A DNA stretch of 64,000 nt from Ralstonia pickettii DTP0602 (GTDB lineage: Bacteria > Pseudomonadota > Gammaproteobacteria > Burkholderiales > Burkholderiaceae), in NCBI GenBank assembly GCA_000471925.1, contig CP006667.1, forward strand, positions 1,798,001 through 1,862,000, read 5' to 3'. Below the pieces are notes generated by a model, which was not told where the DNA came from, made no database searches, and worked only from the letters and a program-made list of their open reading frames with translations. Positions 3,438 to 60,278 of this stretch are shown piece after piece. Every line of letters starts with the position of its first letter. Positions within the stretch are counted from its first letter, which is position 1. The position numbers and the translations under genes are program-made.

Positions 3438-3478
3438 AGCGTAGATGGCGACGGTGGATTCGGGTTGACATGGCTCAA
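3438..3478 (-). promoter_or_regulatory. FNR-like class II promoter for usp/adh
   Basis: The palindrome TTGAC-ATGG-CTCAA at 3465-3478 is a near match to TTGAT-N4-ATCAA. On the minus strand it is followed, after 21 nt, by TACGCT at 3438-3443 as a -10 hexamer. This places the box near -41.5 of the USP gene at 3381. The same geometry recurs across the window. Confidence 0.65.
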
Positions 3479-3529
3479 CGCCGGCCGCGGGGCGATGGAA
3501 TCCTGAGTAGGCGAGCACCGGTCTCTGCG

Positions 3530-6244
3530 CTACACGTTGCACCGCCGGCTCCACCATTTGTCCAGCTCCACCGCAATCGTCAATGTCAGCGCGAGCGACA
3601 ACAGCCCGGCCCACGTCGTAGCCGACACAGGTGTGAGGCTAAGCGTGTCACTTAGCCCGGGTATGTACATGGCAGCGATATGGAATGACTGGGCGGCCAG
3701 TACGCTGGCCACCAGCATCGGATTGGCGAAGACCCCCTGTCGGAATACGGAGTGGCGCTCCGAACGGCTACTAAACGTCTGCAAGTTCTCAAACAGCACA
3801 AACAGCAGCAGCAATTGGTTGCGTGCCTCGTCTATGTGATAGCCGCGGTCGAGCAGCCAGTAGAAAGTTGCGAATCCCCCTACGCCCATGACAAGAGTCG
3901 AATAGCAGATGCGGCGGATCATTACGCGGTCAAAGATCGGTTCCCGGGGCTTGCGCGCCGGATACGACAGTTCATCGCCTTCCGCGTGCTCGGTAGCCAG
4001 AGCCACATCCTGGATGCCATTGGTCACGAGGTTGAGCCACAGCAGCTGCACCGGCAGCAATGGCATTGGCAGACCCAGGGGAATCGCCAGCAGAAACAGA
4101 ACCACTTCGGCCGCGCCGGTGGAAACCACCATGAAGATGACTTTGCGAATGTTCGCGTACGCCACCCTGCCTTCATGGATGCCGTTGACGATGGACGCAA
4201 AGTTGTCATCGGTGAGGACAATGTCTGCGCTTTCCTTCGCCACTTCAGTTCCCTTTCGGCCCATGGCCACACCGACGTGTGCGTGCTTGAGCGCAGGAGC
4301 GTCGTTGACGCCGTCGCCAGTGACTGCCACGAAATGGCCGGTTCTTGCCAGCGACAGGACAATGGACAGCTTTTGGTCCGGACTGACGCGGGCGTAGATG
4401 CGCGCACGGTGGGTCAGTTGGTCGAGTCCGTGCGGCCCCTCGCTCTCGGCCTGGCGCACCTGCTCGCCCGTCACGACCTGGTCCGCGGTAAAGCGTAGCC
4501 CCGCCTGCGCTCCAATTGCGCTGGCCGTCAACGGATCGTCGCCAGTCACCATCGCCACGTCGATGCCGGCGCTGTAGCAGCGTCGGATAGCCTCGGGGAC
4601 CTCTGGACGAACCGGATCCTTCATGCCTGCCATTCCCAGAAAGGTCAGGTTGACCAGGTGCCCGTGTCCGTAGGACCCGTCCGGCTCTGCATCAATCGTG
4701 CCTTCAGCGAACGCCAGCACGCGTAGTCCTTGGGCGGCCAGCGCTGCTTTTCCCCGAAGCAGTGCCTCGCGCCGGATCGGCACGGCATGGCCGCGAGCAG
4801 CCGCCTGGTCGCACATGGCGATCAGCGTCTCGGGCGCTCCCTTGACGAACACGCGGATCGTCTCTTCGTGCCGGTGGAACGAGGCCGCGTACCGCAGGTC
4901 TGGCTCATACGGGATACGGCCCACCAAGGGGTACCGCTGTCGGATCTCATTGGCTACGGTGCCTCCCTTGTGCGCTGCGGCCAGCAGCGCCACGTCCACG
5001 CTGTCCCCGGTGCCAGTCCAGCCGTCGCGCTCCCTGGATAGTTGGGCCTCGTTTGGCAGCGCCGCGGCCCTTAGCAGGGCCGCTACCCGCGTTCTCGCGT
5101 CCTGGTCGGTGGTGCCGGCCGCGTGGATCGTGCAGTTGTCCAGGTCGTGCCCGACGTCGCAGGAAAACGCCGTGCCGTCGGGAAGCCGGATATCGGTGAC
5201 GACAAGCTCGTTCATGGTCAGGGTGCCGGTCTTGTCGGTGGCGATCATGGTGCAGGAGCCAAGCGACTCCACGGCGGGCATTTTGCGCACGATCACGTGG
5301 GCCTTTGCCATCCGCCGCATGCTGATCGCCAGCGCCACCGAAATGGCGACGGGCAGTCCTTCGGGGATCGCGCTCACCGCCAGTCCGACCGACATCATGA
5401 ACAGTTCGCGCAATGCCATGCCGCGCAGCATACCCACCAACACTAGCAACGAGACAGCCACGCCTACCGCCACCGCGATCAGTCGGGAAAAACGCTGGAG
5501 CCTGAGAATCAAAGGTGGCTGCGAGATGGATTCGCGGCCCAGTTCCCGCGCAATCCGGCCAATTTGCGTGGCAGCGCCAGTTGCCACCACGATGCCGTGG
5601 CCCCTGCCGCGGAGCACCACCGTGCCGGCGAAGGTCAGGCACTGGCGGGCGCTCGCTGTGGCGTTGCTGGGATCACATGCGGAGAGCTTGCGCACCGGTA
5701 GCGATTCGCCGGTCAGCAGGGATTCATCGCACTGCAGGTCAATGGTGTAGGTCAGTTTCAGGTCGGCCGGCACTCGGCTGCCGGCTTCCAGCACCACCAG
5801 GTCACCCGGTACCAGGGTACTTGCGTCGATCTCCTGCTGCACGCCGTCCCGGATCACCGGGGCACGGGGCTGCTCCATCTTGCGCAGCGCCACGGTCGCC
5901 TTGTCCGCCGTATGCTCCTGTGCGGTGCCGATGACTCCGTTAAGCAGCAGTACTGCCCCAATGAACAGTGCGTCCTTCAGGTCACCCAATGCGAGCGACA
6001 CCGCTGCCGCGGCCAGGAGGATGTAAATAAGCGGACTGAGGAACTGGCGCAGAAACAGCGCGACAACCGACCTCGGGGCCGCCTGAGGCAGCACATTGCG
6101 GCCCACCTCGGCCAGCCGCGCACGAGCCTGCGCGGTGGTCAGGCCGGGTGGGACGTGCCCCGGATCTATGCCATCCCGAGTACCGTAATGTTCTTCGTCA
6201 GATCGGGGGCGATCCGTTTGCAACGCGCTGGAGCGATTTTGCAT
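3530..6244 (-). CDS. P-type cation ATPase, Ca-type (P2)
   Basis: A 904-residue inner-membrane cation pump. In order it shows an N-terminal cytoplasmic segment, paired membrane helices near 70-105, the actuator motif LTGES near 177-181, the P2-type 'PEGLP' in membrane helix 4 near 294-298, the phosphorylated Asp337 in DKTGTLT, the hinge 'TGDGVNDAP', and 'LLWLNLVTNGIQD' in helix 6, then four C-terminal helices. This is the SERCA/PMR1-like branch, which moves Ca2+, Na+ or Mn2+; the ion cannot be fixed from sequence. The frame runs up to 6334, but the ATG at 6244 gives a normal N-terminus. It is divergent from the metallo-hydrolase gene and shares its FNR-like site. Confidence 0.9.
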   Translation of the reverse strand: MQNRSSALQTDRPRSDEEHYGTRDGIDPGHVPPGLTTAQARARLAEVGRNVLPQAAPRSVVALFLRQFLSPLIYILLAAAAVSLALGDLKDALFIGAVLLLNGVIGTAQEHTADKATVALRKMEQPRAPVIRDGVQQEIDASTLVPGDLVVLEAGSRVPADLKLTYTIDLQCDESLLTGESLPVRKLSACDPSNATASARQCLTFAGTVVLRGRGHGIVVATGAATQIGRIARELGRESISQPPLILRLQRFSRLIAVAVGVAVSLLVLVGMLRGMALRELFMMSVGLAVSAIPEGLPVAISVALAISMRRMAKAHVIVRKMPAVESLGSCTMIATDKTGTLTMNELVVTDIRLPDGTAFSCDVGHDLDNCTIHAAGTTDQDARTRVAALLRAAALPNEAQLSRERDGWTGTGDSVDVALLAAAHKGGTVANEIRQRYPLVGRIPYEPDLRYAASFHRHEETIRVFVKGAPETLIAMCDQAAARGHAVPIRREALLRGKAALAAQGLRVLAFAEGTIDAEPDGSYGHGHLVNLTFLGMAGMKDPVRPEVPEAIRRCYSAGIDVAMVTGDDPLTASAIGAQAGLRFTADQVVTGEQVRQAESEGPHGLDQLTHRARIYARVSPDQKLSIVLSLARTGHFVAVTGDGVNDAPALKHAHVGVAMGRKGTEVAKESADIVLTDDNFASIVNGIHEGRVAYANIRKVIFMVVSTGAAEVVLFLLAIPLGLPMPLLPVQLLWLNLVTNGIQDVALATEHAEGDELSYPARKPREPIFDRVMIRRICYSTLVMGVGGFATFYWLLDRGYHIDEARNQLLLLFVLFENLQTFSSRSERHSVFRQGVFANPMLVASVLAAQSFHIAAMYIPGLSDTLSLTPVSATTWAGLLSLALTLTIAVELDKWWSRRCNV

Positions 6245-6340
6245 GAGGTTTCCCAAGGTATGCTCGGCGCGGGACCACGCGTGCGGACTTCTGTCGGCCC
6301 TGCGCGTACGACACGTGCGGCGAGGGCCGGACACTGTTCA

Positions 6341-6408
6341 AGCGTAGGTACTCGCGTGTCCGCATGATTGATCCGTATCAACCACCACTCGGTTCCCCCT
6401 CCTAGACT
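6341..6408. promoter_or_regulatory. bidirectional FNR-like promoter
   Basis: A perfect palindrome TTGAT-CCGT-ATCAA sits at 6368-6381. It has a -10-like hexamer exactly 21 nt away on both sides: TACGCT on the minus strand (6341-6346) toward the P-type ATPase, and TAGACT on the plus strand (6403-6408) toward the metallo-hydrolase at 6476. One regulator dimer could therefore drive both divergent genes. Confidence 0.78.
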
Positions 6409-8820: not shown

Positions 8821-9029
8821 TTGGTTTGCCGACATACCCGAGCCGTTTCCTGATCTAGTGTCTAACATGCGTGACTCAGCCGGTGTCGGCACACGGGTTG
8901 TGGCTCCGACGTTGCCTGCAACTGCGAGATTCCGGTTTTGAGCCGCATCGAGCACAACTCGCTTCTCGTGCAGTTGCCTTTCCGCGCACAAACTCTATAG
9001 TCCATTGGCAAGGTAACAGAGACGAGAGC

Positions 9030-10373
9030 ATGCCCCTGAAGGCGTCTTCACTTGATCCGCAGGCGAGCAGGCAAGCCAGTCCGTCTCCTGCATGGAGGCC
9101 TGCGGACATCGCCCTCGGACTGAGCGTCGTGCTGGCTTGCGTTGGGCTGGCGTACTTGTTGCAAGCTGCCGTGGAGCGCTACCGCGCTCTGGTGCTGGCG
9201 CCAATGGTGCCTGTCCTGGGCGCAGGCAGCGGTCTGCTGCTGGGGCTTTATCTGATCCGGATACGCAAGCTCAGGCAGACCACCGCAGACAACCTCCGGC
9301 GGGTGGCCGAAAGCGAGGCACGGCTGGCCGGCATTATCCGGTCCTCGATGGAGGCAATCATCACAGTGGACAGCGAACAGCGCGTCCTGTTGTTCAATCC
9401 CATGGCGGAGACGCTGTTCGGCTGGACGGCAGCTGACGCGATCGGGCGCAAACTCAGCAACTTCATCCCGCAGCGCTTCCGCGCTGTCCATGAAGAGCAC
9501 GTGCGCCGCTTTGGCGTTACCGGGGTATCGGAGCGCCAGATGGGCAGACAGCGCACGCTTCATGCGCTGCGCCGCGACGGCAGCGAGTTCCCGATTGAAG
9601 CGTCGATCTCGCAGACCTCGGACCGCGGCGGCAAGCTTTATACCGTGATGCTGCGCGATACCACCGAGCGGGTACGGGCGGAGGAGGCGCTACACCGCTC
9701 CCGCGAAGAGCTGGAACAGCTCTCCGATGGCATCCTCACCGCGCGGGAAGAGGAGAAACGCCGCATCGCCCGTGAACTGCACGATGACCTTGGTCAGCGC
9801 CTCAGTGCCCTGAAGATGGATCTCGCCATGCTGGAGGCCGACGTACTGGAAGGCCGGGATGCCGCCAGCCTGTCGGCGGAGATAGCAACCATGCATACCG
9901 TGATTGACGAGACGGTGGCGTCGGTCCGGCGCATTGCCACGGATCTGCGCCCGGCGCTGCTGGACGAATTGGGCATGGTGCCTGCAATCGAATGGCTGGC
10001 CAACGACTTCTCGACCCGATATGGGTTAGCCGTATCGGTGGTCGCCGCGGACGACGAGGTGCCGGAAAAGATCGCCGTCGCCGCATTCCGCATCGTTCAG
10101 GAGGCGCTAAGCAACGTGGTTCGGCACGCCAACGCCAGCAGGGCAACGGTTTCCATTGGCAGGGACGGGCCGAACCTGCGGCTCGAAATACATGACGACG
10201 GCTCTGGGTGGAAGGAGCGTCCAGCGGACAACGGTCAGCGCAAGTCGCTGGGGCTGCTGGGGATTCGCGAGCGCGCCCGGTTGCTGGGCGGCGACGTCCT
10301 TGTCCAGAGTTCGCCCGACGATGGCTTTCGCCTGGTCGTGCGAATTCCGCGGGAGCAGGGGGAACGGGCATGA
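9030..10373 (+). CDS. PAS sensor histidine kinase, NarX/DegS-like
   Basis: A 447-residue inner-membrane sensor kinase. Two hydrophobic segments (about 27-47 and 53-77) leave almost no periplasmic loop. A PAS domain spans about 97-212, followed by a coiled linker, then the HisKA_3 dimerisation helix 'RRIARELHDDLGQRLSALK' with phospho-acceptor His251, and a HATPase_c domain with 'EALSNVVRHANAS' and 'GLLGIRERARLLGG'. The frame is open to a GTG at 8871, but ATG 9030 gives the natural N-terminus. Its TGA overlaps the ATG of the response regulator (ATGA), so the two are translationally coupled. The signal is unknown; a PAS domain in a low-oxygen locus suggests redox or gas sensing, but no heme ligand can be assigned by eye. 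Confidence 0.92.
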   Translation: MPLKASSLDPQASRQASPSPAWRPADIALGLSVVLACVGLAYLLQAAVERYRALVLAPMVPVLGAGSGLLLGLYLIRIRKLRQTTADNLRRVAESEARLAGIIRSSMEAIITVDSEQRVLLFNPMAETLFGWTAADAIGRKLSNFIPQRFRAVHEEHVRRFGVTGVSERQMGRQRTLHALRRDGSEFPIEASISQTSDRGGKLYTVMLRDTTERVRAEEALHRSREELEQLSDGILTAREEEKRRIARELHDDLGQRLSALKMDLAMLEADVLEGRDAASLSAEIATMHTVIDETVASVRRIATDLRPALLDELGMVPAIEWLANDFSTRYGLAVSVVAADDEVPEKIAVAAFRIVQEALSNVVRHANASRATVSIGRDGPNLRLEIHDDGSGWKERPADNGQRKSLGLLGIRERARLLGGDVLVQSSPDDGFRLVVRIPREQGERA

Positions 10374-11017
10374 CAAGGGTGATGATTGCGGATGACCATA
10401 CTGTGGTACGGGATGGCCTGCGGCATATCCTGGAACGGGCCGGTGTGTTCGAGGTCGTCGGCGAGGCGGCCGATGGTACGCAAGTGCCCAGGATGGTACG
10501 GGAATGCAACCCGCAGGTGCTCTTGCTTGACCTTTCCATGCCTGGCAGGAGCGGGCTGGAATTGATCCGCTTGCTGCGCGGCGAGCACCCGGCCTTGCGT
10601 ATCCTGGTCCTGACCATGCATGCGGAGGAGCAATACATCGTCCGCGCGTTCCAGGCCGGCGCAGCAGGCTATCTGACCAAGGAAAGCGCGGCCACGGAAC
10701 TGGTGTCCGCCATCGGGCAGGTAGCCCGGGGCGGCACCTATGTGAGCCAGTCGATTGCCACAAAGCTGGCAAGCGGGCTGAAGGACCAGACCGACGACCT
10801 GCCGCACCTGAGGCTGTCGGACCGCGAGCTGGAAGTGTACCGGCGGCTAGTGCTCGGGGAGCCCATCACGGCGATCGCCACGGCACTGTGCGTCAGTGCC
10901 AAGACCGTGAGCACCTACAAGATGCGGCTGATGGAAAAAATGCAGATGCCCAATGAGGCCATGCTGTTGCGCTATGCCATGCGCAATCATCTGTTCGACG
11001 ACGACACTGACCTGTAA
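10370..11017 (+). CDS. LuxR/NarL-family response regulator
   Basis: A 215-residue response regulator and cognate partner of the upstream kinase. The receiver shows the acidic pair in 'IADDH' and phospho-acceptor Asp54 in 'LLLDLSMP', with the conserved Lys in 'YLTKES'. A LuxR-type helix-turn-helix near 148-205 reads 'LSDRELEVYRRL...ISAKTVSTYK'-like (here 'VSAKTVSTYKMRLMEK'). It starts at ATG 10370, overlapping the kinase stop by four bases. It presumably activates or represses genes of this stress region on phosphorylation; its binding site is not visible. Confidence 0.92.
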   Translation: MTRVMIADDHTVVRDGLRHILERAGVFEVVGEAADGTQVPRMVRECNPQVLLLDLSMPGRSGLELIRLLRGEHPALRILVLTMHAEEQYIVRAFQAGAAGYLTKESAATELVSAIGQVARGGTYVSQSIATKLASGLKDQTDDLPHLRLSDRELEVYRRLVLGEPITAIATALCVSAKTVSTYKMRLMEKMQMPNEAMLLRYAMRNHLFDDDTDL

Positions 11018-11053: not shown

Positions 11054-11452
11054 CTATGGCCGCGAGGTCGCCGCCAGCCCGGCCATGACCAGGCGCAGTG
11101 CATCGAGTTCCAGCGTCTTGTCGAAGCAGTAGCTCCCGCCTGCCTTCAGGCAAGCGCGGCGCAGCGGCGGGCCGAGGTTATCGGCCAGCACGATCACGAT
11201 CGTATGCGGCAGCATCGACCTCAGTGTCCTGACCTCCTGGAGCGCATGAGCATAGCCGGTGCCCAGGCTGATCAGGACGACGTCCGGGCGATGACGCATC
11301 AGCCCGGCAATTTCCGTGGCAGCGCTGGCGCCCGAACCCGCGACACGGATGCCAGCCATTCGACCGAGCAAGCCGAGCTGCCTGGTTCGGATCGCATTGA
11401 CATGCTCGAGCAGGTACACGGTGAGGAGATTGGCTTGATTGCGGTCTGGCAT
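11054..11452 (-). CDS. receiver-like protein lacking the phospho-acceptor Asp
   Basis: A 132-residue protein with the alternating pattern of a response-regulator receiver and no output domain. 'HRPDVVLISLGTGY' aligns with the 'PDVVLLDLxMP' strand of true receivers, but the phosphorylated Asp is Ser. The conserved Lys region 'SYCFDKTLELDAL' is kept. ATG 11452 is chosen because upstream in-frame sequence is compositionally poor; no strong ribosome site is visible. It converges on the kinase-regulator pair, 36 bases from its end. It may be a decoy receiver or a phosphorylation-independent module; function is unknown. Confidence 0.65.
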   Translation of the reverse strand: MPDRNQANLLTVYLLEHVNAIRTRQLGLLGRMAGIRVAGSGASAATEIAGLMRHRPDVVLISLGTGYAHALQEVRTLRSMLPHTIVIVLADNLGPPLRRACLKAGGSYCFDKTLELDALRLVMAGLAATSRP

Positions 11453-11750
11453 GGCCAACAGTATCGCCCCCGCTCTAGCGGGCGGCAAATAAAGGACGGC
11501 TGAGAGTGGCGTCAGCGCGCCGGAAGGCGCTGTCAGTGATCTCTGACATGCACGTCCACGTCTTGTCGGCTTGGCCGCGCAGTACGTCAGCTCCGGCAAG
11601 CAAGCCAGCGGCGTGGCATCGGGTCGTCGGTGACGGATGTGGCCGTGCCTTGATGTAGCCCAAGATCGCGACCGCGTGCACACCTACTCTGGAGGGCATC
11701 ACCGGCGCAGCCGACGTTTATCGGCTACCGACTTGTCTCAGGAGATTCCC

Positions 11751-12287
11751 ATGCGCGCGATTGCGCTTACCGCCTGCCTGCTCTGCCTGGGCCTGTTCGT
11801 TGCCATCCCCGCGGGCGCTGCTTCGCCGGAGTCGTCCGCGGTTCCGGCGGCGCCGGCGGTTCAGTACATGAACGGCATCGACTACGTTTCCGGCGGGATC
11901 GGGGTGGAGCAGGTGGCGGTCATGCGCAGCATTGCCGGGCGCTTCAACGTCCATATGCACTTTGTGAACGAAGCCGACGGTAGCAGCTTGTCTGACGTCA
12001 CCGTGACACTGTTCGACGCTCGGCGCGAGATTGTGCTGCTGGTGCTGAGCGAAGGGCCGCTGCTGTACCTGCGGCTGCCGCCAGGCGACTATCGCGCGCT
12101 GGTCCGCTCCGCAGGCGCGATCGAATGCCGAACCGTGCGCGTGCGCCCGGATGGCACCGGACCGTCGCTTCTGCTGCGCCTTCCAGGGGATTCCCTCGTC
12201 GCGCCGGCGCGGACAGGGAACCCGCGCCAGGCGATGCGGCGCGCGCAGGGCGGTGGCACCGATGGCTGCTACCGCGGCGGGGCCTAA
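11751..12287 (+). CDS. exported 'YVSGG' family protein
   Basis: A 178-residue protein with a clear signal peptide (residues 1-23, ending AGA-A). After it comes 'YMNGIDYVSGGIG', then 'RFNVHMHFVNEADG', 'DVTVTLFDARRE' and 'GPLLYLRLPPGDYRALV'. The second half looks like a small carboxypeptidase-regulatory/prealbumin-like beta sandwich. The same order of motifs occurs in the proteins at 12582-13304 and 43863-44348, so this is a paralogous family in the window. AGGAG lies eight bases ahead of the ATG. No function is known to me; a periplasmic stress or surface role is a guess. Confidence 0.8.
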   Translation: MRAIALTACLLCLGLFVAIPAGAASPESSAVPAAPAVQYMNGIDYVSGGIGVEQVAVMRSIAGRFNVHMHFVNEADGSSLSDVTVTLFDARREIVLLVLSEGPLLYLRLPPGDYRALVRSAGAIECRTVRVRPDGTGPSLLLRLPGDSLVAPARTGNPRQAMRRAQGGGTDGCYRGGA

Positions 12288-18579: not shown

Positions 18580-18652
18580 CTCGGTCTCCTGGGAGGGCGG
18601 CGCGCGGTGCGCACCGGATGCTCTTACTTTGGCAAGCCGGGCCAATTGCGGT

Positions 18653-18666
18653 TTGCTTTGCATCAA
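18653..18666 (-). promoter_or_regulatory. possible FNR-like site ahead of hsp20
   Basis: TTGCT-TTGC-ATCAA reads TTGAT-GCAA-AGCAA on the minus strand, like the sites ahead of groEL and ppsA. Unlike the others it has only a poor -10 match (CAAAGT) at the expected 21-nt distance, so it is less certain. Confidence 0.4.
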
Positions 18667-18941
18667 ACGGCCGCAGATTGTCCTCGGGTGTGTGCGCCAG
18701 ATACCGGTGTTGCGTCACATGCGCCTGCGCGGAAAGCCTGGGCGTACGGCATGACCGGTGTCAGGGAACCCTGACAAGCGACGCTGCATTCCTGACACGC
18801 AACTCAGCGCAGCCTTCTAGGCGTGGAACCCGTGCCGTCCAATACTTCAATCAAACATAGCGGCGTGCATGCAGATGCGGTCCGCCAGGCGATGTGCGAA
18901 CGCGGGTCGGAACCAGGAAGGCCGGCGGAACGGAGACAACC

Positions 18942-19736
18942 ATGTTTGACTTGCATACTGAGGTTGATGCTGTTTGTGACGCGACCGACATGTCCGGCGC
19001 GCTCGACAGGCGCGAGGATGGGATGCCTGCAGCGAAGGTGCCGGGCGATGGTCGGGCCAGATGCACGACCTGCATGATGCGGAATATCTGCATGGCCGCC
19101 GCCAGCCTGGAGGCCGGCGAAATGGCCCGCTTGGACTCCGTCGTGCAAGGCTGGCGTTCGGTCAAGCAGGGCGAACGGCTGTACCGCGCCGGCGATCCGT
19201 TCCGCAGCCTCTATGCGGTCCGCGTCGGCTCGTTCAAGACCGTGGTGGCGCCGGAGCGGGGCAAGGAGACCATCTCGGGCTTCTTTATGGCCGGGGACGC
19301 CATCGGCATGGAAGGCGTCTGCCAGGAAACCCATAACTGCGATGCGATTGCCCTGGAAGATAGCGTGGTCTGCGTGATCCCCTTCCACCTGCTCGAGGCG
19401 CTTTGCCGCGAGATCAAACCGCTGCAACGCCAGTTGCACAAGATGTTCAGTGCCGAGATCGTCAGGGAATCGCGCCAGATGATGCTGTTGGGCAATATGT
19501 CCGCCGAGCAGCGCGTGGCGGCATTCCTGTTGAACGTCTCGGCACGCTACCGCGAGCGGGGCTATTCGGCCACGTCCTTTGTGCTGCGCATGACGCGTGA
19601 GGACATCGGCAGCTTTCTCGGCGTGACCCTGGAAACCGTGAGCCGGATCTTGTCAAAGTTCCAGCAGGAAGGGCTGCTCACCGTGCAGGGCAAGACCATC
19701 GAGTTGCTCAACCTAGACGCCCTCGATGCTCGCTAG
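18942..19736 (+). CDS. FNR-type oxygen-sensing regulator (Crp/Fnr family)
   Basis: A 264-residue transcription factor. Cys41, Cys44 and Cys50 in '[10 protein letters not shown]', with Cys144 in 'SVVCVIPF', match the four ligands of the oxygen-labile [4Fe-4S] cluster of E. coli FNR. A cyclic-nucleotide-fold domain follows, then a winged helix whose recognition helix reads '[14 protein letters not shown]', with the E..SR residues that read TTGAT half-sites. ATG 18942 follows CGGAG; longer in-frame starts lack this. It should activate at TTGAT-N4-ATCAA sites, which recur through the window. Compared with FNR it has an extra N-terminal ~20 residues. The adjacent phosphorylase gene starts 26 bases later and may be co-transcribed. 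Confidence 0.93.
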
Positions 19737-19762
19737 CAGCGTCATACGCGGCAAGGCATGAC

Positions 19763-21325
19763 GTGAACGATCCCAGTTTTGATCCCGGAATTCCCTGCCG
19801 CCTCGGCGATGTCGTGGCCGCCGCCGCGTCCCGCGAAGTCGGGACGCTGGTGTTCCGGCCGCTCGAGATCGATACGTGGCAGGAGCATGTCATCTACATG
19901 CACCCGGATTGCCCCGTCTGCCGCGCCGAGGGCTTTTCTGCGCAGGCGCGCGTACGCGTGCAGATCGGCGACAGGTCATTGATCGCCACGCTGACGCTGC
20001 TGGGCGCGCCGCTGTTGAACATGGGCGAAGCGAGCCTGTCGGTGAGCGCGGCACGGACGCTTTCCGCACGCGCCGGCGATGTCGTGCATGTCACGCATGC
20101 GCCCGCGCTGGAGTCGGTGCGGGCACTGCGTGCCAAGATCTATGGCTGCCACCTGGACAGCGCCCAGCTGGACGGCATCATTGGCGACATCAGTGCAGGG
20201 CGGTACGCCGACGTGCATATTGCCGCATTCCTCACCGCCTGCGCGGACGGTCGCATGAACCTGCGCGAGACCGTCGACCTGACCCGGGCCATGGTCCGGT
20301 CCGGCCAGCGCCTGAGCTGGGACCGCGAGGTGGTTGCGGACAAGCATTGCGTCGGCGGGCTGCCGGGCAATCGCACCACACCGATCGTCGTGGCCATTGC
20401 GGCAGCGGCCGGGCTGCTGCTGCCCAAGACCTCGTCGCGCGCGATCACTTCGCCCGCCGGCACCGCCGATACGATGGAAGCCCTGACCCGCGTGACGCTG
20501 GATGCGACGGAACTGCGGCGCGTGGTGGAACAGGTCGGGGCGGCCCTGGTGTGGGGCGGGGCGCTGAGCCTGAGTCCCGCGGACGACATGCTGATCCGCG
20601 TGGAGCGCGCCCTGGATATCGACAGCGATGCGCAGCTGGTGGCCTCAATCCTGTCGAAGAAGATTGCCGCTGGCTCCACCCACGTGCTGATCGACGTGCC
20701 GGTGGGGCCGACGGCCAAGATCCGCGAAGACAGCGAGCTGGAGCGTCTGCATATCGCCATGACCAAAGTCGCGGACGCTTTCGGGTTGAAGATCCGGATT
20801 CTGCGCACCGACGGCTCGCAGCCAGTGGGCCGGGGCGTCGGGCCCGCGCTCGAGGCGATCGACGTGCTGGCGGTGCTGCAGTGCCAGCGGACGGCGCCCG
20901 CCGACCTGCGCGAACGCTCGCTGCTGCTGGCTGGCGAGTTGCTGGAGTTTTGCGGCGCGATGCCGGTCGGGCAGGGACGGCTGCAGGCTGGCAGTCTGCT
21001 CGACAGCGGTGCCGCCTGGACCCGTTTCCAGGCGATCTGTGAAGCGCAAGGGGGGCTGCGCACCCCGGGGCAGGCGGTGTTCCGGCGCGACGTGGTCGCA
21101 GCCCGCAGTGGCATCGTGGCGTCCGTCGACAACCGGCACGTCGCGCGCGCGGCGAAGCTGGCCGGGGCGCCGCGCCGGCAAGTGGCCGGGCTGGAACTGC
21201 ATGTCCGCACTGGCGACGAGGTCGTAGCCGGCGCGCCGCTCTGTACGTTGCATGCCCAGGCTTCCGGCGAACTGGAATATGCGTTCAGCTACGCGCTGGC
21301 GCATGAACTTTTCCGCATCGAATAG
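19763..21325 (+). CDS. thymidine/AMP phosphorylase family enzyme, archaeal type
   Basis: A 520-residue phosphorylase of the long 'putative thymidine phosphorylase' branch related to archaeal AMP phosphorylases. A ~85-residue N-terminal barrel-like extension precedes the family core '[15 protein letters not shown]' (about 194-208) and '[13 protein letters not shown]', with '[13 protein letters not shown]' further on. It cleaves a nucleoside or nucleotide with phosphate to give a base and ribose phosphate. GTG 19763 is the start, with AAGGCATGA ahead. It follows the FNR-type gene closely. With the PRPP synthetase, phosphoribosyltransferase and pncB nearby, a pentose-phosphate salvage role at low energy is plausible. 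Whether AMP or thymidine is the substrate cannot be told. Confidence 0.85.
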
Positions 21326-24559: not shown

Positions 24560-24600
24560 AGCTTAGGCGGGGGGAGGGTAGGCCGGTTGATGCAGGTCAG
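24560..24600 (-). promoter_or_regulatory. FNR-like promoter for usp/mgtA-like operon
   Basis: TTGAT-GCAG-GTCAG at 24587-24600 is a weak palindrome, but TAAGCT sits 21 nt away on the minus strand (24560-24565), the same geometry as elsewhere, about 110 bases ahead of the USP start. Confidence 0.5.
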
Positions 24601-24619: not shown

Positions 24620-24705
24620 CCACGGGGACTTAGGGCTTCGTTGACAGCCATCAACCCGCATGCCCTTGCGACCGCTACTTTGGAAATAACCCATCGCCGA
24701 AGCCG
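24620..24705 (+). repeat. promoter cassette, copy 1 (FNR-like site, orphaned)
   Basis: This ~85-bp stretch is nearly identical to 43254-43340. It contains TTGAC-AGCC-ATCAA at 24641-24654 and TACTTT at 24676-24681, 21 nt apart. In copy 2 a USP gene follows at once; here no USP follows, and the next certain gene starts at 24869. It may still drive that gene. Confidence 0.75.
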
Positions 24706-32807: not shown

Positions 32808-33056
32808 TCAACGTGTCGCTGCGGCTTCCAGGTAGGACACGACATCGTCTAGCGTGACGAGCCGGCCGTAGTCGGATTCAGGGATATCCACTTTCAATTT
32901 CTCGTGCAGGGCAAGGAGGAAGCGGAGCCAGTCCATGGAATCAAGGTCGACCTCCCTGCGCAGGGGACGATCCGGGCGCAGGGCCTGCGGCTCGATCTCA
33001 GGGGCGATCTCGCACAACGTGGACACGACGACGGCGCGGATACTGGCGTTGTTCAT
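32808..33056 (-). CDS. acyl carrier protein
   Basis: An 82-residue acidic carrier with phosphopantetheine Ser40 in 'EVDLDSMDWLRF' and the usual four-helix pattern. The DSM motif is slightly unusual against DSL, as in secondary carriers rather than the housekeeping AcpP. Its ATG overlaps the E2 stop (ATGA), so it was translationally coupled to E2 before the IS insertion. It probably serves the FadD-like and FAAL-PlsC enzymes downstream. Confidence 0.9.
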   Translation of the reverse strand: MNNASIRAVVVSTLCEIAPEIEPQALRPDRPLRREVDLDSMDWLRFLLALHEKLKVDIPESDYGRLVTLDDVVSYLEAAATR

Positions 33057-33513
33057 CGGTCAAGCTCCTCAGGCAGTTGCAGCAGTTCCCGTAGTTCGGT
33101 GAGAAAGAGCGCGCCGCGATGACCGTCGGAGACACGATGGTCGGCCGAGAGGCTGGCTGTCATGGCGGGCATCACTGCCACCGCACCGTTTTCCGCCCAT
33201 GGCTGCTCAATGATGCGACCGAAACCCACCAGCGCCACCTGGGGAGGGTAGATGACCCCGAACACCTGTTCCGCGCCCTGATCCCCGAGATTGGTAATGG
33301 TGACGGTAGGCTCGGACAACTCGGCACGCCTGAGGGAACCAGCGCGACAGCGTTTGACCAGGTCGGCCAGTTCCTGCATCAGTTGTGCAACTGGCTTGCT
33401 GTCGACATGCAGCAGCGCGGGCGCCACCAGGCCGCCCTGGCGGAGAGATATCGCGACCCCGACGTGCACGGCCGTTGCGGCGCTGAACGCACCGTTGTGG
33501 AAGAATCCATTTA
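33053..33513 (-). pseudogene. E2 acyltransferase gene, C-terminal part cut off by IS630
   Basis: The 3' piece of a 2-oxoacid dehydrogenase E2. It resumes at 'NGFFHNGAFSAATAVHVGVAI' directly after the IS end and carries the catalytic 'DHRVSDGHRGALFL'. Removing the IS and one TA copy restores a single frame ('RFPEL' joined to 'NGFF') of about 371 residues with the part at 34615-35271. Alone, this piece has no natural start. Its stop overlaps the ACP start. Confidence 0.88.
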
Positions 33514-34614
33514 CTGACCAGTCCCTAAATAAAGCGACAAAAGTTGAACGCAAGGGATCGACGGTAGTCTCATGAGGCATGAAACGAGATGGCCGCAAAC
33601 TGGATCGGGCGACGCAGGAGGAATTTCGGTTGCTGGCGTTGCGCCGAGTGAGGGAAGGCGAGAAGCCGTCGGAGGTGGTGAAGTCGCTGGGGATGAATCG
33701 CACCTCGATCTACCGGTGGATCAAAGCTGCCTGCGGACGCGGAAAGGGGGAACGCGCGCTGGCCGCGCGGCGGGCAACCGGCCGACCGGCCAAGCTCACA
33801 GCGCGCCAGCAAGCGCAGGTGTTGCGCTGGATCAACGGCAAGGATCCCAGGCAATACGGACTGGACTTCGGGCTGTGGACGCGACAAATCGTGGCCACCT
33901 TGATTGACCAGAAGTTTGGTGTGCGCATGGGGCTGACGGCGGTGGGGAGATTGCTGGCGCGTTTGGGCCTGACGCCGCAAAAGCCACTGCAGCGCGCCTA
34001 CCAGCGCGATCCTCAGGCGATCGAGCGCTGGCAGCGTGAGACCTATCCCGACATTGCGTCAACTGCCCGGCGCAGCGGGGCCGAAATCTACTTCTGGGAC
34101 GAATCCGGCTTCCGCGCTGACACGGTGCACGGCAAGACGTGGGCGCTCAAAGGGCAGAGCCCGGTGATCGAGCGGCCCGGCCAGCGCCAGTCAGTTTCGG
34201 CAGCTTCGGCGGTCAACGCCTTGGGCGGCTTCTGGTTCGCGACGTACAAGGGAGCGCTCACCGCGGAACTGTTCGTCGAATTGCTCAAGAAGATGATGAA
34301 GGGCCGGCGCAAGCCGGTGCATCTTGTCGTTGACGGCTTGCCGGCCCATAAGAAGGCAAGCGTGCGCGAATACGTCGAATCCACTGGCGGCAGATTGACG
34401 TTGCACTTCCTGCCAGGCTACGCGCCGGACCTCAATCCGGACGAGCTGGTGTGGAGTCACATCAAGCGCACCGGCGTGGCGCGCAACCCGCTGCGCGCAG
34501 GCGAGAAGTTGGAGATTCGCGTCGAGCAACAACTGCGCGGGCTGCAGAGAAAGCGGAGCCTGGTTCGATCATTCTTCGATGTCCCATCTGTCGCATATAT
34601 TTGGGACTGCTGAG
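33514..34614 (+). mobile_element. IS630-family insertion sequence
   Basis: A 1101-bp element bounded by a TA duplication (33512-33513 and 34615-34616). Its ends are imperfect inverted repeats of about 26 bp: CTGACCAGTCCC...GCGACA on the left and CTCAGCAGTCCC...GCGACA on the right in reverse complement, 19 of 26 matching. TA targeting and the encoded DDE transposase place it in the IS630 (Tc1/mariner-like) family. It lies inside the E2 gene, opposite to the operon's direction. Confidence 0.93.
33579..34613 (+). CDS. IS630-family transposase
   Basis: A 344-residue DDE transposase in one frame, so probably active. An N-terminal helix-turn-helix ('RVREGEKPSEVVKSLGMNRTSIYRWIKA') is followed by a winged segment. 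The catalytic triad is visible as Asp in 'YFWDESGF', Asp in 'HLVVDGLPAHK' and Glu in 'PGYAPDLNPDELVW'. The stop codon falls within the right inverted repeat. Confidence 0.95.
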   Translation: MKRDGRKLDRATQEEFRLLALRRVREGEKPSEVVKSLGMNRTSIYRWIKAACGRGKGERALAARRATGRPAKLTARQQAQVLRWINGKDPRQYGLDFGLWTRQIVATLIDQKFGVRMGLTAVGRLLARLGLTPQKPLQRAYQRDPQAIERWQRETYPDIASTARRSGAEIYFWDESGFRADTVHGKTWALKGQSPVIERPGQRQSVSAASAVNALGGFWFATYKGALTAELFVELLKKMMKGRRKPVHLVVDGLPAHKKASVREYVESTGGRLTLHFLPGYAPDLNPDELVWSHIKRTGVARNPLRAGEKLEIRVEQQLRGLQRKRSLVRSFFDVPSVAYIWDC

Positions 34615-35271
34615 TAACTCGGGGAAGCGCTTGAGAGCGACTGCGACGGCTTTGATCAGTAAGACCGCCGGGAGGACGCGCTCGGTCATGGATCGGCTGG
34701 CGTTTTCCCGGGCGAGCCAGGCGAGCGCAGTCCGCAACGGGATCGTCTCTGCGACGTAGTAATGAGGAATCTCGCGCTTGGCTCGCGCCATCGCCGCGCC
34801 AATGGTCTTGCGGATTTCGGCCGATCGGTCGCCTGGCGCGGCGGCGGGCTTGCGCGCCGCTTGCTCGACATCGGCCAGCGTTACCGCGCCACCCGGCCCG
34901 GTGCCGGTCATGGCTTCGACGTCGATCCCCTGTTCCCGAGCGAGCTTGCGCGCTGCCGGGGACACCATGCGTCGACCCCGAGTGCCGCTCGCCGGCTCTG
35001 GCCCAGGCGCGTGCCATATGGTGCCTGGTGTTTCGCCAGGTTCAAGGAAGGTCGCCATCAGCGTGCCGACGGGAATCTTGTCTCCCCGCGAAACCAGGAG
35101 TTCAGCGACGACACCGTCGTGCCACGTCTCCACCTCGATCGCAGCCTTGCTGGTGTCGACCACGGCGATGATCTGTCCCTTCTTCACGGTGTCGCCGGGC
35201 TTCACGGCCCATTCGAGCAGCGTACCCTCATCCATGTCTGCGCCCAGCGAGGGCAGGCGGAATTCGATCAC
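34615..35271 (-). pseudogene. E2 acyltransferase gene, N-terminal part cut off by IS630
   Basis: The 5' piece encodes a lipoyl domain (residues 1-78; lipoylated Lys in 'VDTSKAAIEV'), a peripheral-subunit-binding domain ('VSPAARKLAREQGIDVEAMTGTG') and the start of the catalytic domain up to 'ALKRFPEL'. It then runs into the IS and stops at 34462. Such an E2 would transfer acetyl or acyl groups to CoA in a pyruvate or acetoin dehydrogenase-like complex. The product here could be lipoylated but cannot catalyse transfer. The start at 35271 precedes a normal E2 N-terminus. Confidence 0.88.
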
Positions 35272-41833: not shown

Positions 41834-41874
41834 AGACTAGTGGTGAAATGGCGCCGTGGCTTGATCCAACGCAA
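41834..41874 (-). promoter_or_regulatory. FNR-like class II promoter for the ppsA operon
   Basis: TTGAT-CCAA-CGCAA at 41861-41874 is followed 21 nt later on the minus strand by TAGTCT (41834-41839). The predicted start lies about 115 bases ahead of ppsA. The CGCAA half-site is shared with the phasin and groEL sites. Confidence 0.6.
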
Positions 41875-42006: not shown

Positions 42007-42047
42007 TTGACGTGCATCATGCTTGACCGCCAGGTGGCTCCAATAAT
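42007..42047 (+). promoter_or_regulatory. possible FNR-like promoter toward the tandem USP
   Basis: TTGAC-GTGC-ATCAT at 42007-42020, with AATAAT at 42042-42047, has the standard 21-nt gap. It lies about 270 bases ahead of the USP at 42313, across the fossil adh fragment, so it may once have driven the lost gene arrangement. Confidence 0.4.
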
Positions 42048-43253: not shown

Positions 43254-43340
43254 CAGGGGGACTTAGGACTTCGTTGACTGGCATCAACCCGCATGTCCTT
43301 GCGACCGCTACTTTGGAAAGAACCATAGCCGAAGCCGAGG
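43254..43340 (+). repeat. promoter cassette, copy 2 (FNR-like site ahead of usp)
   Basis: Near-identical to 24620-24705. TTGAC-TGGC-ATCAA at 43274-43287 and TACTTT at 43309-43314 are 21 nt apart, and the USP start is at 43346. This copy still has its gene. Confidence 0.78.
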
Positions 43341-43345: not shown

Positions 43346-43810
43346 ATGTACCGCCGCATTCTCCTAGCCATCGATGGCAGCCGCTCATCCTTAAATGCCC
43401 TGGAGCAGGCCGTGTCCATGGCGCTGGCCACCCACGCCGAGGTCAGCGCCATGTTCGTCGTCGACGACAGCGACCTGTTCTTCGAGATCAGGCCGGGTTA
43501 CCGGCCCTGGCTGATGGCCGACATCATTGCCTATGGCAAGCAAGTGCTGGCACGCGCCGGCGAGCGCCTGAGTGCCGCCGGCGTGCGCTGGAGCAGCAGG
43601 TTGGCCGAGACGCCTGGCACCCCTGCGAAGGTTGCCGAGGCGATCGTCGCGGAAGCGGACCACTGGAGCGCAGACCTGATCGTCATGGGCACACACGGCC
43701 ATCGCGGCGTGCGGCGCATGGTGCTGGGCTCGGTCTCGGAGCACGTCGTCAGCAAGACAGTTCGCCCCGTACTGCTCGTCCGGCAGCAGTCAGGCAGCGA
43801 AACTCCCTGA
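43346..43810 (+). CDS. universal stress protein, single domain
   Basis: A 154-residue UspA protein (MYRRILLAIDGS) with an intact nucleotide loop G-TH-G-HRGVRRMVL-GS. Its middle 'VVDDSDLFFEIRPGY' resembles the USP at 2926. The ATG at 43346 follows GAGG and lies directly behind promoter cassette copy 2. A lipoprotein gene follows 52 bases later. Confidence 0.93.
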   Translation: MYRRILLAIDGSRSSLNALEQAVSMALATHAEVSAMFVVDDSDLFFEIRPGYRPWLMADIIAYGKQVLARAGERLSAAGVRWSSRLAETPGTPAKVAEAIVAEADHWSADLIVMGTHGHRGVRRMVLGSVSEHVVSKTVRPVLLVRQQSGSETP

Positions 43811-44457: not shown

Positions 44458-45000
44458 TCACGTCTCGTTCGGGGACAACCAGGCGGGACGCTCGGCGTGG
44501 GCAGGCCTGGAATCCGCGAACCGCAACGCCTGCACGAAGTCATCGATCTCGGCGGCGGCATCGCCGCTCAGCACGTCACGTTCGAGCAGCACGAGCGCCG
44601 GCGCGGGTGTTTTGCCCGTGAGCCTGGCTATCTCCGCCTCTGCCTGGAAGCCCCCGCGCGCTGCCATGATACAGATTGCCGACACGCGCCCGGCCAGCGG
44701 CGGCGTGGCGACGCTGGCGGCGAGGAAGCTGCGCATCGGGGCCGCCAGCCTGCCCATCCATACCGGTGCCAGGACCACGACATGCTCGCAGCGATCAAGG
44801 GCCGGGCCGCCGTAGCGGTACTCGACCTGGCGGTGAAAGAGGTTATCGATAACGCACCGGAGGTCCCCAAGGATCCCGGCGCGGCTTTTCACGTCGGCGA
44901 CCTCGGCCAGTGGCCATCCCGACCGAGCGGCAACGGCCTCGGCGACCTGGCGTACGGTGCCGGTGCGGGAGTAAAAAACAATCGCGGCTTGGGTCATCAC
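44458..45000 (-). CDS. flavodoxin family protein
   Basis: A 180-residue FMN-binding flavodoxin-like protein. 'IVFYSRTGTVRQVAEAVA' (residues ~7-24) is the phosphate-binding loop and 'VVLAPVWMGRLAAPMRSFL' the second flavin contact. It is longer than electron-transfer flavodoxins and may be a quinone or azo reductase. Divergent from a USP gene, with its own FNR-like promoter at 45041-45081. Confidence 0.88.
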   Translation of the reverse strand: MMTQAAIVFYSRTGTVRQVAEAVAARSGWPLAEVADVKSRAGILGDLRCVIDNLFHRQVEYRYGGPALDRCEHVVVLAPVWMGRLAAPMRSFLAASVATPPLAGRVSAICIMAARGGFQAEAEIARLTGKTPAPALVLLERDVLSGDAAAEIDDFVQALRFADSRPAHAERPAWLSPNET

Positions 45001-45040: not shown

Positions 45041-45081
45041 AGCGTAGGCCTTGCGTGGCGGCCGCCATTGATGCGCATCAA
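45041..45081 (-). promoter_or_regulatory. FNR-like class II promoter for the flavodoxin gene
   Basis: Perfect palindrome TTGAT-GCGC-ATCAA at 45068-45081 with TACGCT 21 nt away on the minus strand (45041-45046). The gene starts 40 bases further on. Confidence 0.75.
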
Positions 45082-45132: not shown

Positions 45133-45173
45133 TTGACACGTATCAACAGCAGTTGCGCCGCCTGCCCTACGCT
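45133..45173 (+). promoter_or_regulatory. FNR-like class II promoter for usp
   Basis: TTGAC-ACGT-ATCAA at 45133-45146 and TACGCT at 45168-45173 (21-nt gap), 58 bases ahead of the USP at 45231. Separate from the divergent site at 45068, so each gene has its own box. Confidence 0.75.
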
Positions 45174-46295: not shown

Positions 46296-46535
46296 TCAAT
46301 GCCGAAGCCCCCGGCCCAGTTCGCAGTCGACAACGCCCGCTGCATAGGCGAAGAGCCACTCTTCGGCCTGTTGCACGCTGCCCGGCACGGCGGGCCAGTC
46401 TGGCGTAAAGCGAACGCCGATGCCTCTGTCCGACGCTGTGAAAAGGACACCGCCGCTGGGCTTGCCCGGCGCGATGGCGTCGGGGACGAACAACACGACG
46501 TGGAACCCCTTGTACGACCGCTTTGTTTCATGCAT
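46296..46535 (-). CDS. small protein of unknown function
   Basis: A 79-residue protein starting MHETKRSYKGFHVVLFVPD, with 'VLFTASDRGIGVRFTPDW' and a helical end 'QQAEEWLFAYAAGVVDCEL'. AGGAG lies well placed ahead of ATG 46535, which supports this start over longer frames. It looks like a compact alpha-beta domain. I know no family for it. Confidence 0.65.
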   Translation of the reverse strand: MHETKRSYKGFHVVLFVPDAIAPGKPSGGVLFTASDRGIGVRFTPDWPAVPGSVQQAEEWLFAYAAGVVDCELGRGLRH

Positions 46536-46675: not shown

Positions 46676-46716
46676 TTGATGCACGACAAATCCGGGACCG
46701 GGGGGCGATATAGATT
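46676..46716 (+). promoter_or_regulatory. FNR-like promoter for tandem USP
   Basis: TTGAT-GCAC-GACAA at 46676-46689 and TAGATT at 46711-46716 (21-nt gap), 42 bases ahead of the USP start at 46758. Confidence 0.6.
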
Positions 46717-46757: not shown

Positions 46758-47597
46758 ATGGACTACGCAACGATCCTGGTTCATCTCGATGCCAGCCGCC
46801 GCGTGTACGACCGGCTGAACCTCGCCACCCAGCTGGCGCTGGAGTTCCAATCCACGCTGGTCGGCCTGCTTGCCGTCGGCAAGCCGGATCCCACCGCCGT
46901 ACGCTACCTGGTGGACGGTGACCGCTATCTCGCCTCCTACAACGAATGGCAGCATCAGGTCGGCGAGCGGGCCCGCCATGCCCTGATGGGCGCGACGGAC
47001 GAGGTAGCCGTCATTACGGAATGGCGGGCGCCGGACTGGGCCACGGCGGTGACGGTCCAGGCAGAGGCACATCGGGCGGATCTTGTCATCCTCGGACAGC
47101 ACGATCCCACTGATGATGCCGCCTACGCCGAGCCCGGCTTTGTTGAATCCATCGTGCTGCAATGCGGGCGGCCGGTGCTGGTGGTCCCGTATGCGGGCCG
47201 GTTCCCGAGTGTTGGCAAGAACATCATGGTGGCGTGGAATGGCAGCCGCGAGTCGGCGCGGGCCATCCGCGATGCGCTCCCACTTCTGCAGCGCGCAGGC
47301 ACCGTGGAAGTGGTTTCGTGGACACCATCTGGCGTTCTGAAGGGGCCATGGGTTTCGCCGCCTCAGTATGCCGTGGACTGGCTGGCTCGGCATGGCGTGG
47401 CAGTGCAGCTGTGCACTTTTGCGGCGGGAGACGGCGAGGACGTCGGCCAGCTGTTGCTCTCGCACGCCGCGGACCGAAATGCTGACCTGATCATCATGGG
47501 GGCCTACGGGCACAGCCGGGTGCACGAGCTGGTCCTTGGCGGTGTCACCCGAACGCTGCTCGAGTCGATGACAGTGCCGGTACTGATGTCGCACTGA
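46758..47597 (+). CDS. universal stress protein, tandem domain
   Basis: A 279-residue double UspA protein (MDYATILVHLDAS). The N-terminal unit lacks a clear nucleotide loop ('LGQHDPTDD'). The C-terminal unit has G-AY-G-HSRVHELVL-GG and ends 'PVLMSH'. It is a paralogue of the USPs at 7896 and 42313. It has its own FNR-like promoter, and its mRNA leader can form a GC-rich hairpin. Confidence 0.93.
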   Translation: MDYATILVHLDASRRVYDRLNLATQLALEFQSTLVGLLAVGKPDPTAVRYLVDGDRYLASYNEWQHQVGERARHALMGATDEVAVITEWRAPDWATAVTVQAEAHRADLVILGQHDPTDDAAYAEPGFVESIVLQCGRPVLVVPYAGRFPSVGKNIMVAWNGSRESARAIRDALPLLQRAGTVEVVSWTPSGVLKGPWVSPPQYAVDWLARHGVAVQLCTFAAGDGEDVGQLLLSHAADRNADLIIMGAYGHSRVHELVLGGVTRTLLESMTVPVLMSH

Positions 47598-50692: not shown

Positions 50693-51172
50693 TCAGCTCC
50701 GTGCCGCGCCGGCCGGGCGCGCCTGGGCCTTCGCGCCTGGGGTAGGGACGGCCATCAGGCGGCCGACGTTGTCGAACATCTCGCGCGCCGATTCCGCAAA
50801 GGGCGCGTAGCCGCCTCCCTCCACCATGACCTTGCGCTGGTAGTCCTGCCAGGCTTCAGTCGACTCGCGCAGGTGCTCCATGAAAGCCGAGGCCATTTCA
50901 ACGTAAAGGGTGCCAAAGTCTCGTGCATGCGCGGCGTTGCGCTCAACCTGCGCGGCCAGAATTTGAGCGGGCAGGCCATGGAAGGCGTTCCAGTCGGGTG
51001 CGTCGGTGACGCGCGCGAGCGCCTGCCGGGCGCCCTTGATGTCCTCGTCCAGGGCCGTGAGGCGGAGTCTGAGCAGCATCTGGCGCGATTCTTCCCAGCG
51101 CAGCCATATGCGCAGGGCGGACTGCTCGGCGCAGCGCGCGAGTTCGAAGGCGGGATCGGTCTGGTCTGGCAT
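50693..51172 (-). CDS. phasin family protein
   Basis: A 159-residue mostly helical protein fitting a phasin, which coats PHB granules. 'MASAFMEHLRESTEAWQDYQRKVM' and the amphipathic helices 'ESRQMLLRLRLTALDEDIKGARQAL' support it, as does position directly before phaB and phaC. AGGAG precedes the ATG at 51172. The Ala/Pro-rich tail 'GAKAQARPAGAA' is also phasin-like. An FNR-like promoter is at 51229-51270. Confidence 0.82.
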   Translation of the reverse strand: MPDQTDPAFELARCAEQSALRIWLRWEESRQMLLRLRLTALDEDIKGARQALARVTDAPDWNAFHGLPAQILAAQVERNAAHARDFGTLYVEMASAFMEHLRESTEAWQDYQRKVMVEGGGYAPFAESAREMFDNVGRLMAVPTPGAKAQARPAGAARS

Positions 51173-51228: not shown

Positions 51229-51270
51229 AGTCTAGGAGGGCGACCCTGGCGGGAGATTGATGTATCGCAA
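51229..51270 (-). promoter_or_regulatory. FNR-like promoter for the phasin-phaBC operon
   Basis: TTGAT-GTAT-CGCAA at 51257-51270 with TAGACT on the minus strand at 51229-51234 (22-nt gap, one more than usual), 57 bases ahead of the phasin start. Confidence 0.55.
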
Positions 51271-51532
51271 GGAGTGCGCAATGCGTCGGGGGGCGCGGCA
51301 TCGCCAAGCCGCGCCTGCGTTGGTCAGAGCACAGGGGTCGCATGGCCGGCGGCCTGCGCATTGTGGCCGGACGCCCAGCGAGACAAGGCCGAGCAGGAGC
51401 CGAGACCGAGATGTCCTGTTACACGCCACGAGCAAACGGGCGTTCCTTTGATCCATCCCAAACTGCAGGGCCGGCTCACCGCCTACGGTAATCCCAAGGG
51501 GCCGGGCCGACCCCATCCATCTGGAGCACGAC

Positions 51533-56575: not shown

Positions 56576-56616
56576 ACGGTAGTGGCCATCCCGGCCTGCA
56601 CGTTGATGCAACGCAA
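56576..56616 (-). promoter_or_regulatory. FNR-like promoter for the groEL paralogue
   Basis: TTGAT-GCAA-CGCAA at 56603-56616 with TACCGT 21 nt away on the minus strand (56576-56581), about 42 bases ahead of the start codon. Confidence 0.55.
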
Positions 56617-59841: not shown

Positions 59842-60103
59842 ACCAGAGCGAGAAATTCCGTTTGCGGAGTTCCATGGTCGTAGTCAGAGGGCGGCCGGCA
59901 GCCACCTGGGCGCGCGCTCCGCCCAGGCGGCACCGGTGACGGATGGCCTGGCCCGCCGGCGACAGCGGCTTGCGATGGTGGGGAAGCGCCGCGGGTGGAA
60001 CAGAGAGACGGCCGACTTGCGCAAGAAATGCTTCACTTCAGCTTCGTGGACACCGGTGTCCCATGCCATCGTTTGGATCCTTGCGCAGGTTGCGCTTCAT
60101 TCC

Positions 60104-60144
60104 ACGATAGCGGCGGGTCGGGGCTGGCCTTTGATCGGTATCAA
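60104..60144 (-). promoter_or_regulatory. FNR-like class II promoter for the ftsH-like operon
   Basis: Perfect palindrome TTGAT-CGGT-ATCAA at 60131-60144 with TATCGT 21 nt away on the minus strand (60104-60109). The gene begins about 230 bases later, so the mRNA has a long leader. Confidence 0.72.
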
Positions 60145-60237
60145 CGGCCACCGTCACAGCCCGCCCGTCGCCGGCATTGCGCGGCCTGCTACGGCGGATC
60201 ATGTAGGCGGCGTCGCCTGCAGGTGTCTGGCCATTGT

Positions 60238-60278
60238 TTGATCCAGCCCAAGTCGATAGCCGCGCAGGCGCATAGCTT
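60238..60278 (+). promoter_or_regulatory. possible FNR-like promoter for the hydrolase operon
   Basis: TTGAT-CCAG-CCCAA at 60238-60251 with TAGCTT at 60273-60278 (21-nt gap). The palindrome is weaker. The hydrolase gene starts at 60483. Confidence 0.45.

Follow-up and report, generated by a model that had tools for sequence, protein, structure and literature searches.

The stretch analysed here, called the window throughout, is 64 kb of DNA from the soil bacterium Ralstonia pickettii DTP0602 (C1:1798001-1862000, 65.7% G+C, in an 8.13-Mb genome of three contigs). Nearly all of its operons share one promoter layout, in which a palindrome TTGAT-N4-ATCAA is followed after 21 or 22 nucleotides (nt) by a TAnnnT hexamer, and the layout is linked across genomes to a gene for an FNR-type regulator that lies in the window itself (18942-19736). 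The window is very probably an island of FNR class II promoters of the same type as the lxa locus of Burkholderia cenocepacia, with this island FNR as the most likely activator.

We propose that the window makes up most of an island of about 95 kb, whose operons of stress, storage and energy genes would start at FNR class II promoters. As oxygen falls, an FNR-type dimer carrying an oxygen-labile [4Fe-4S] cluster would form, bind the palindrome centred near -41.5 and contact RNA polymerase placed on the -10 hexamer (TAnnnT) 21-22 nt further. The dimer in question would most likely be that of the island FNR.

A fixed spacing between palindrome and -10 hexamer

Palindromes were searched with up to two mismatches and read in both orientations, so that the 32 found in the window give 64 oriented palindromes; in 100 shuffles the count averages 8.35 and never exceeds 17. 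TAnnnT stands 21 nt after 14 of the 64 and 22 nt after three, while every other gap from 0 to 59 nt has none or one, with gaps 7-20 and 23-30 empty. The hexamer occurs once per 428 positions in the window, and at this rate 14 of 64 at 21 nt has a binomial P value of 6e-24. The first-pass annotation of this DNA had taken a chance rate of 1 in 64, which is wrong in G+C-rich DNA, and thus understated its own case: the layout it described is real and stronger than it had claimed. We call a palindrome with TAnnnT at a gap of 21 or 22 nt a compound site (exact form: TTGAYN4RTCAA, 21 nt, TAnnnT). In 60 dinucleotide shuffles of the window, such sites number 0.12 on average and two at most.

That annotation had counted 14 palindromes in 15 orientations at a 21-nt gap (once 22). 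For thirteen orientations the gap to TAnnnT is exactly 21 nt (3465-, 6368+, 6368-, 24587-, 24641+, 41861-, 43274+, 45068-, 45133+, 46676+, 56603-, 60131- and 60238+) and for 51257- it is 22 nt; 42007+, with only AATAAT at 21 nt, drops out of the layout and is kept as a weak candidate. To these are added 11650+ (21 nt), 798+ and 51448+ (22 nt), and a conserved minus-strand site at 18626-18666 with CAAAGT at 21 nt. The sites are listed below; "kept" gives the number of orthologs whose upstream region retains the site (next section).

798-839, plus strand: class II-type site, gap 22, before a DUF2188 frame; no ortholog of the frame among the stretches of 11 genomes of the genus
3438-3478, minus strand: class II-type site, gap 21, before the universal stress protein (USP) gene 2926-3381; kept 2/2
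6341-6381, minus strand: class II-type site, gap 21, before a P-type ATPase gene, sharing its palindrome with the next site; kept 1/2
6368-6408, plus strand: class II-type site, gap 21, before metallo-beta-lactamase/beta-CASP, USP, kinase and regulator genes; kept 4/11
11650-11690, plus strand: class II-type site, gap 21, before 11751-12287; kept 3/3
18626-18666, minus strand: class II-type site, gap 21, TGC-CAAAGT, before an Hsp20-CBS-BON-BON-ADP-forming acyl-CoA ligase run; kept 6/6
24560-24600, minus strand: class II-type site, gap 21, before USP and P-type ATPase genes; kept 4/4
24641-24681, plus strand: class II-type site, gap 21, before PNPOx-type, TPM and alanine dehydrogenase genes; kept 2/2
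41834-41874, minus strand: class II-type site, gap 21, before phosphoenolpyruvate (PEP) synthase, AMP-ligase and pyruvate dehydrogenase-like genes down to 28093; kept 2/2
42007-42047, plus strand: weak candidate, palindrome TTGACGTGCATCAT, no TAnnnT at 21 or 22 nt
43274-43314, plus strand: class II-type site, gap 21, before the USP gene 43346-43810; kept 7/8
45041-45081, minus strand: class II-type site, gap 21, before 44458-44997 (weak flavodoxin-like match, below cut-off); kept 5/5
45133-45173, plus strand: class II-type site, gap 21, before USP and DUF1488 genes; kept 8/8
46676-46716, plus strand: class II-type site, gap 21, before the USP gene 46758-47597; kept 4/7
51229-51270, minus strand: class II-type site, gap 22, before 50693-51172 (no Pfam match), a PhaB-type reductase gene and PhaC; kept 3/3
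51448-51489, plus strand: class II-type site, gap 22, before nitroreductase, phosphoribosyltransferase and BON genes; kept 2/2
56576-56616, minus strand: class II-type site, gap 21, before Cpn60-like chaperonin and NAPRTase genes; kept 2/2
60104-60144, minus strand: class II-type site, gap 21, before FtsH and an erythromycin-esterase-like gene; kept 3/4
60238-60278, plus strand: class II-type site, gap 21, before alpha/beta hydrolase and DUF883 genes; kept 1/5

The sites are placed between genes. Genes were called with a home-made codon-model caller, by which 79% of the window is coding and whose starts, picked by score, are rough. All 17 TAnnnT sites of the window fall outside called genes; the only doubtful placement is that of 798+, which runs into the start of a frame passed over by the caller (805-1224), with the DUF2188 domain of that frame further downstream. 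As a genome sample we took 20 stretches of 20 kb (400 kb) from outside the window and its flanks, on which the placement of sites relative to genes was likewise checked. Tried on this sample, the refuting condition named in the first-pass annotation (the pattern equally often inside genes) does not refute the reading: the sample holds two compound sites in all, one of them inside a gene. The same sample has 111 palindromes, and palindrome density alone is therefore rejected as the cause of the excess. Five more sites lie in the right flank (40 kb) and none in the left flank (19 kb).

Genome-wide counts agree with this concentration. Exact compound sites number 10 in 8.13 Mb, seven of them in the window and one about 12 kb beyond it, compared with none for the reversed pattern; with up to one mismatch there are 28 compared with four. 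The palindrome TTGAYN4RTCAA alone occurs at 27 places, six of them in the window (reversed control: nine). A scoring matrix trained on 93 sites of relatives, excluding the window's own genome and the closely related G025, gives 17 matches in the window at a score of at least 18 and none in the 400-kb sample. At the loose threshold of 10 it gives 23 in the window (none coding) compared with 11 in the sample (four coding).

With a 14-bp palindrome followed after 21-22 nt by a -10 hexamer, the layout has the class II distance and thus speaks for activation by a dimer of the FNR type, as the first-pass annotation had read it; the fixed distance puts the palindrome centre at about -41.5 from the predicted start. 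At class II FNR promoters the activator overlaps the -35 region. FF-41.5 is described as a class II FNR-dependent reporter promoter (PMC4505428) and the H. seropedicae fnr1 promoter as class II with an FNR site at -42 (PMC5934665), both with the palindrome and promoter distance seen here. The window differs from them in packing about 18 such promoters into 60 kb, with starts predicted from sequence.

The layout links most operons, in line with the earlier claim. Counted by hand between 0.8 and 62.5 kb, with the DUF2188 frame in and with the transposase gene, the run at the window end and two short, doubtful gene calls (11054-11452 and 46296-46535) out, same-strand gene runs, taken as predicted transcripts, number 15. 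Fourteen of these start with or contain a site (one through the 18626 variant); the sole run without one, 18942-21325, holds the FNR gene and a thymidine-phosphorylase-like gene. The window encodes seven USPs (genes starting at 2926, 7995, 24027, 42412, 43346, 45231 and 46758), together with Hsp20, three BON proteins, a CBS protein, a Cpn60-like chaperonin, FtsH, an erythromycin-esterase-like protein, two P-type ATPases, polyhydroxyalkanoate (PHA) synthase and reductase, PEP synthase, pyruvate-dehydrogenase-like subunits, a nitroreductase and NAPRTase.

Conservation of the sites in relatives

The layout is conserved upstream of orthologous genes. We searched 350 nt upstream of orthologs (at least 70% identity, half length) for a site at 21 or 22 nt with up to three mismatches, in 11 genomes of the genus and plasmid p1 of C. 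necator C39. The test took in 17 promoters, leaving out 798 and 42007 and including 18626, and as a control we used the upstream regions of 19 genes that lie within runs or have no site in the window. A site is found in 59 of 76 regions compared with 2 of 78 control regions (Fisher P value = 3e-24).

The spacing itself is kept in places. The gap at 51448 is also 22 nt in G026, G033 and C39, and that at 51229 is 21 nt in G026 and G033 and 22 nt in G002. The variant at 18626-18666, CAnnnT with TGC before it, corresponds to an extended -10 and has this form in all eight genomes of the genus where it was found. Outside the genus, 19 stretches (one of B. cenocepacia, 18 from genomes of the family) show a gap of 21 nt in 43 cases and of 22 nt in seven, and any other gap from 5 to 44 nt occurs at most five times. 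In another genus of the same family (G049:C3), 11 sites with gap 21 or 22 lie among a cluster of like genes, relatives of the FNR, kinase, regulator, USP, Hsp20, BON, PhaB/PhaC, NAPRTase, FtsH, Cpn60 and E1 genes.

Some individual observations belong here. The 60238 site recurs in L058 and L068, more than 600 nt away from the hydrolase gene. A compound site at L051:12061-12101 (TTGATCCCAATCAA, TACCTT), also present in relatives, has no called gene within 1.5 kb downstream; it is suggested to precede a missed gene or a small RNA.

The island regulator and alternative readings

The regulator and a second regulatory locus of the window are:

18942-19736, plus strand: FNR-type regulator of the island (PF13545/PF00027), ATG at 18942; a longer frame, P0001, starts at 18894
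8871-11017, plus strand: PAS histidine kinase (HisKA_3) and NarL/LuxR-type response regulator (10382-11017)

As the first-pass annotation had stated, 18942-19736 encodes an FNR-type protein; it has the FNR cysteines and recognition residues. Aligned with the solved FNR structure 5e44, it shows the cysteine motif of the cluster and a further Cys (VVC aligned with MVC), so that by alignment all four cluster cysteines are there; in FNR these cysteines ligate the cluster. Its recognition helix of the ExxSR type reads LETVSR compared with VETISR in 5e44. Its closest named relatives are from Cupriavidus, which makes it very probable that the host itself belongs to that genus. That annotation had also spoken of a single low-oxygen regulon. 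Shared cis-control is well supported; oxygen control we infer from the cysteines and the gene set, and the FNR at work would most likely be the island one.

Relatives of the kinase and response regulator pair are found near FNR in many loci of the family, and the pair is a possible second sensor of the island.

The sites are linked to the island FNR gene across genomes. A match to this FNR (E <= 1e-60) is present in 23 of 40 genomes of the genus, that of G027 being really the housekeeping-like FNR, with no site there. The median number of exact compound sites is 8 in these 23 genomes compared with 1 in the 17 without (P value = 5e-6; 9 compared with 1 on a stricter list of 21 genomes with island FNR), and among 74 family genomes of at least 4.8 Mb it is 4.5 in the 54 with island FNR compared with 0 in the 20 without (P value = 3e-6), values that serve as guides only, since the genomes are related and their independence is overstated. 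Of 117 sites in 14 genomes, 69 are no more than 80 kb away from the FNR gene; in G031 none is near.

Nonetheless, several points weigh against the reading as an island of FNR class II promoters. Retention is uneven, at 1/2 for 6341-, 4/11 for 6368+, 4/7 for 46676+ and 1/5 for 60238+. 42007 has no counterpart in G026, where the 600 nt ahead of the 90%-identical gene contain no palindrome. No site precedes the run that holds the FNR gene itself. The protein scores 222.1 bits against the NCBIfam Fnr model NF008365, below the cut-off of 228, and is therefore called FNR-type. Some family genomes have several exact sites without a close relative of the island FNR, for example G099 (five) and G029 of the genus (six), and the island FNR is present with no exact site in G051, G058, G073 and G081. 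Finally, the same palindrome would also suit proteins of the DNR/NnrR/FixK type.

The genome has 27 Crp-type matches, and the 16 examined include two more FNR-type proteins with CxxCx5C and two with the same helix and no CxxCx5C. The sites could be real FNR-type class II promoters that are activated chiefly by the housekeeping-like FNR (C1:2884555-2885370) or by another paralogue, with the island FNR minor or redundant. The housekeeping-like protein has CSTCAMGQLC and the same LETVSR helix, and H. seropedicae Fnr1 and Fnr3 are described as co-activating usp genes (PMC5934665). However, its gene is present in 38 of 40 genomes of the genus whatever the number of sites, whereas the sites track the island FNR, as the 69 of 117 near its gene illustrate. 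We regard this reading as unlikely, if one to be reckoned with.

It is a good deal less probable that the protein acting at the sites shares this recognition class (DNR/NnrR/FixK-like) but senses nitric oxide or another signal, instead of being an oxygen-sensing FNR. The two proteins with the helix and no CxxCx5C would fit such a role, and two relaxed compound sites lie no further than 4 kb from one of them (C1:1331690); against this, the cysteines are there in the regulator conserved inside the cluster, and the genes present are those of a low-oxygen locus. On its own locus (L053, G000:C1:1326001-1340000), the gene at C1:1331690 and its sites perhaps form a small sister regulon.

We reject plain sigma-70 promoters with TTGAT as the -35 box and a palindrome by chance: TTGA does resemble a -35 box, but no TAnnnT stands at gaps 7-20, the -10 is too distant from the first half site for a 17-nt spacer, and both half sites are strongly kept in the sites of relatives (collected at up to two mismatches).

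Within the reading as an island of class II promoters under its own FNR, one palindrome deserves separate mention. The palindrome at 6368-6381 has TAnnnT at 21 nt on both sides (6341-6408). In the stretches read, 182 palindromes have such a -10 on one side or both, and 9 of them show the two-sided design, some being orthologs of each other. Simultaneous use of 6368-6381 by two polymerases is hardly conceivable, so such two-sided palindromes may act as switches. We found no report of one FNR site serving divergent class II promoters in literature judged by titles and the starts of abstracts. A further, tentative proposal, toward which we lean a little less than away from it, is that the island may be a self-contained regulon inherited as a unit, with one FNR-type activator and about 20 class II promoters of a single design, residing on a chromosome-sized contig here and on megaplasmids in relatives, in which two-sided palindromes would let one dimer choose between two operons.

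C. necator C39, Cupriavidus sp. P-10 and C. oxalaticus (L129, L070-L074, L058-L061) carry the island FNR on megaplasmids, but here it is on a 4.5-Mb contig. The window and 59 kb of flanks contain no tRNA gene, so that nothing there points to integration at a tRNA. A 2-oxoacid dehydrogenase E2 gene is in two minus-strand parts (34462-35271 and 33053-33703) with a DDE_3-type transposase gene (33648-34613, plus strand) between them; the E2 gene therefore looks interrupted by an insertion element (33053-35271).

Relation to known low-oxygen loci

We file the window under the known lxa type; the new and measurable point is the uniform promoter geometry. The lxa locus of B. cenocepacia J2315 (BCAM0275-BCAM0323) is described as an island of about 50 genes induced by low oxygen, with six USPs, a USP beside DUF1488, an alpha-crystallin heat shock protein, BON and the FNR BCAM0287, and FNR-box-like motifs are described at many low-oxygen-induced genes (PMC6127331, PMC9733578, PMC4505428). 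By these published gene descriptions, the combination of USPs, Hsp20/alpha-crystallin, BON, DUF1488 and FNR is found together in the window as well. The window differs in its probable Cupriavidus host and perhaps in its PhaC, PEP synthase, pyruvate dehydrogenase-like, FtsH and Cpn60 genes, and the uniform 21/22-nt gap is a measurement made in the window island. We found no report of an lxa-type locus in Cupriavidus in a literature search judged in part by titles.

The DosR regulon of Mycobacterium tuberculosis, a hypoxia set as described, likewise contains USPs and alpha-crystallin. Parallels to the window extend to CBS, nitroreductase, P-type ATPase and NAPRTase genes. DosR differs in having another activator and another box. 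A comparison of lxa with DosR has been published (PMC6127331).

Bacteria of the genus Cupriavidus are used for bioplastics and metal work, and the reading put forward here would mean that a single promoter design governs a whole survival island, its PHA, energy and stress genes included. The countable signature of palindrome, 21-22 nt and TAnnnT offers a means to find lxa-type islands in other genomes. Control by a dedicated as opposed to a housekeeping FNR also becomes directly testable.

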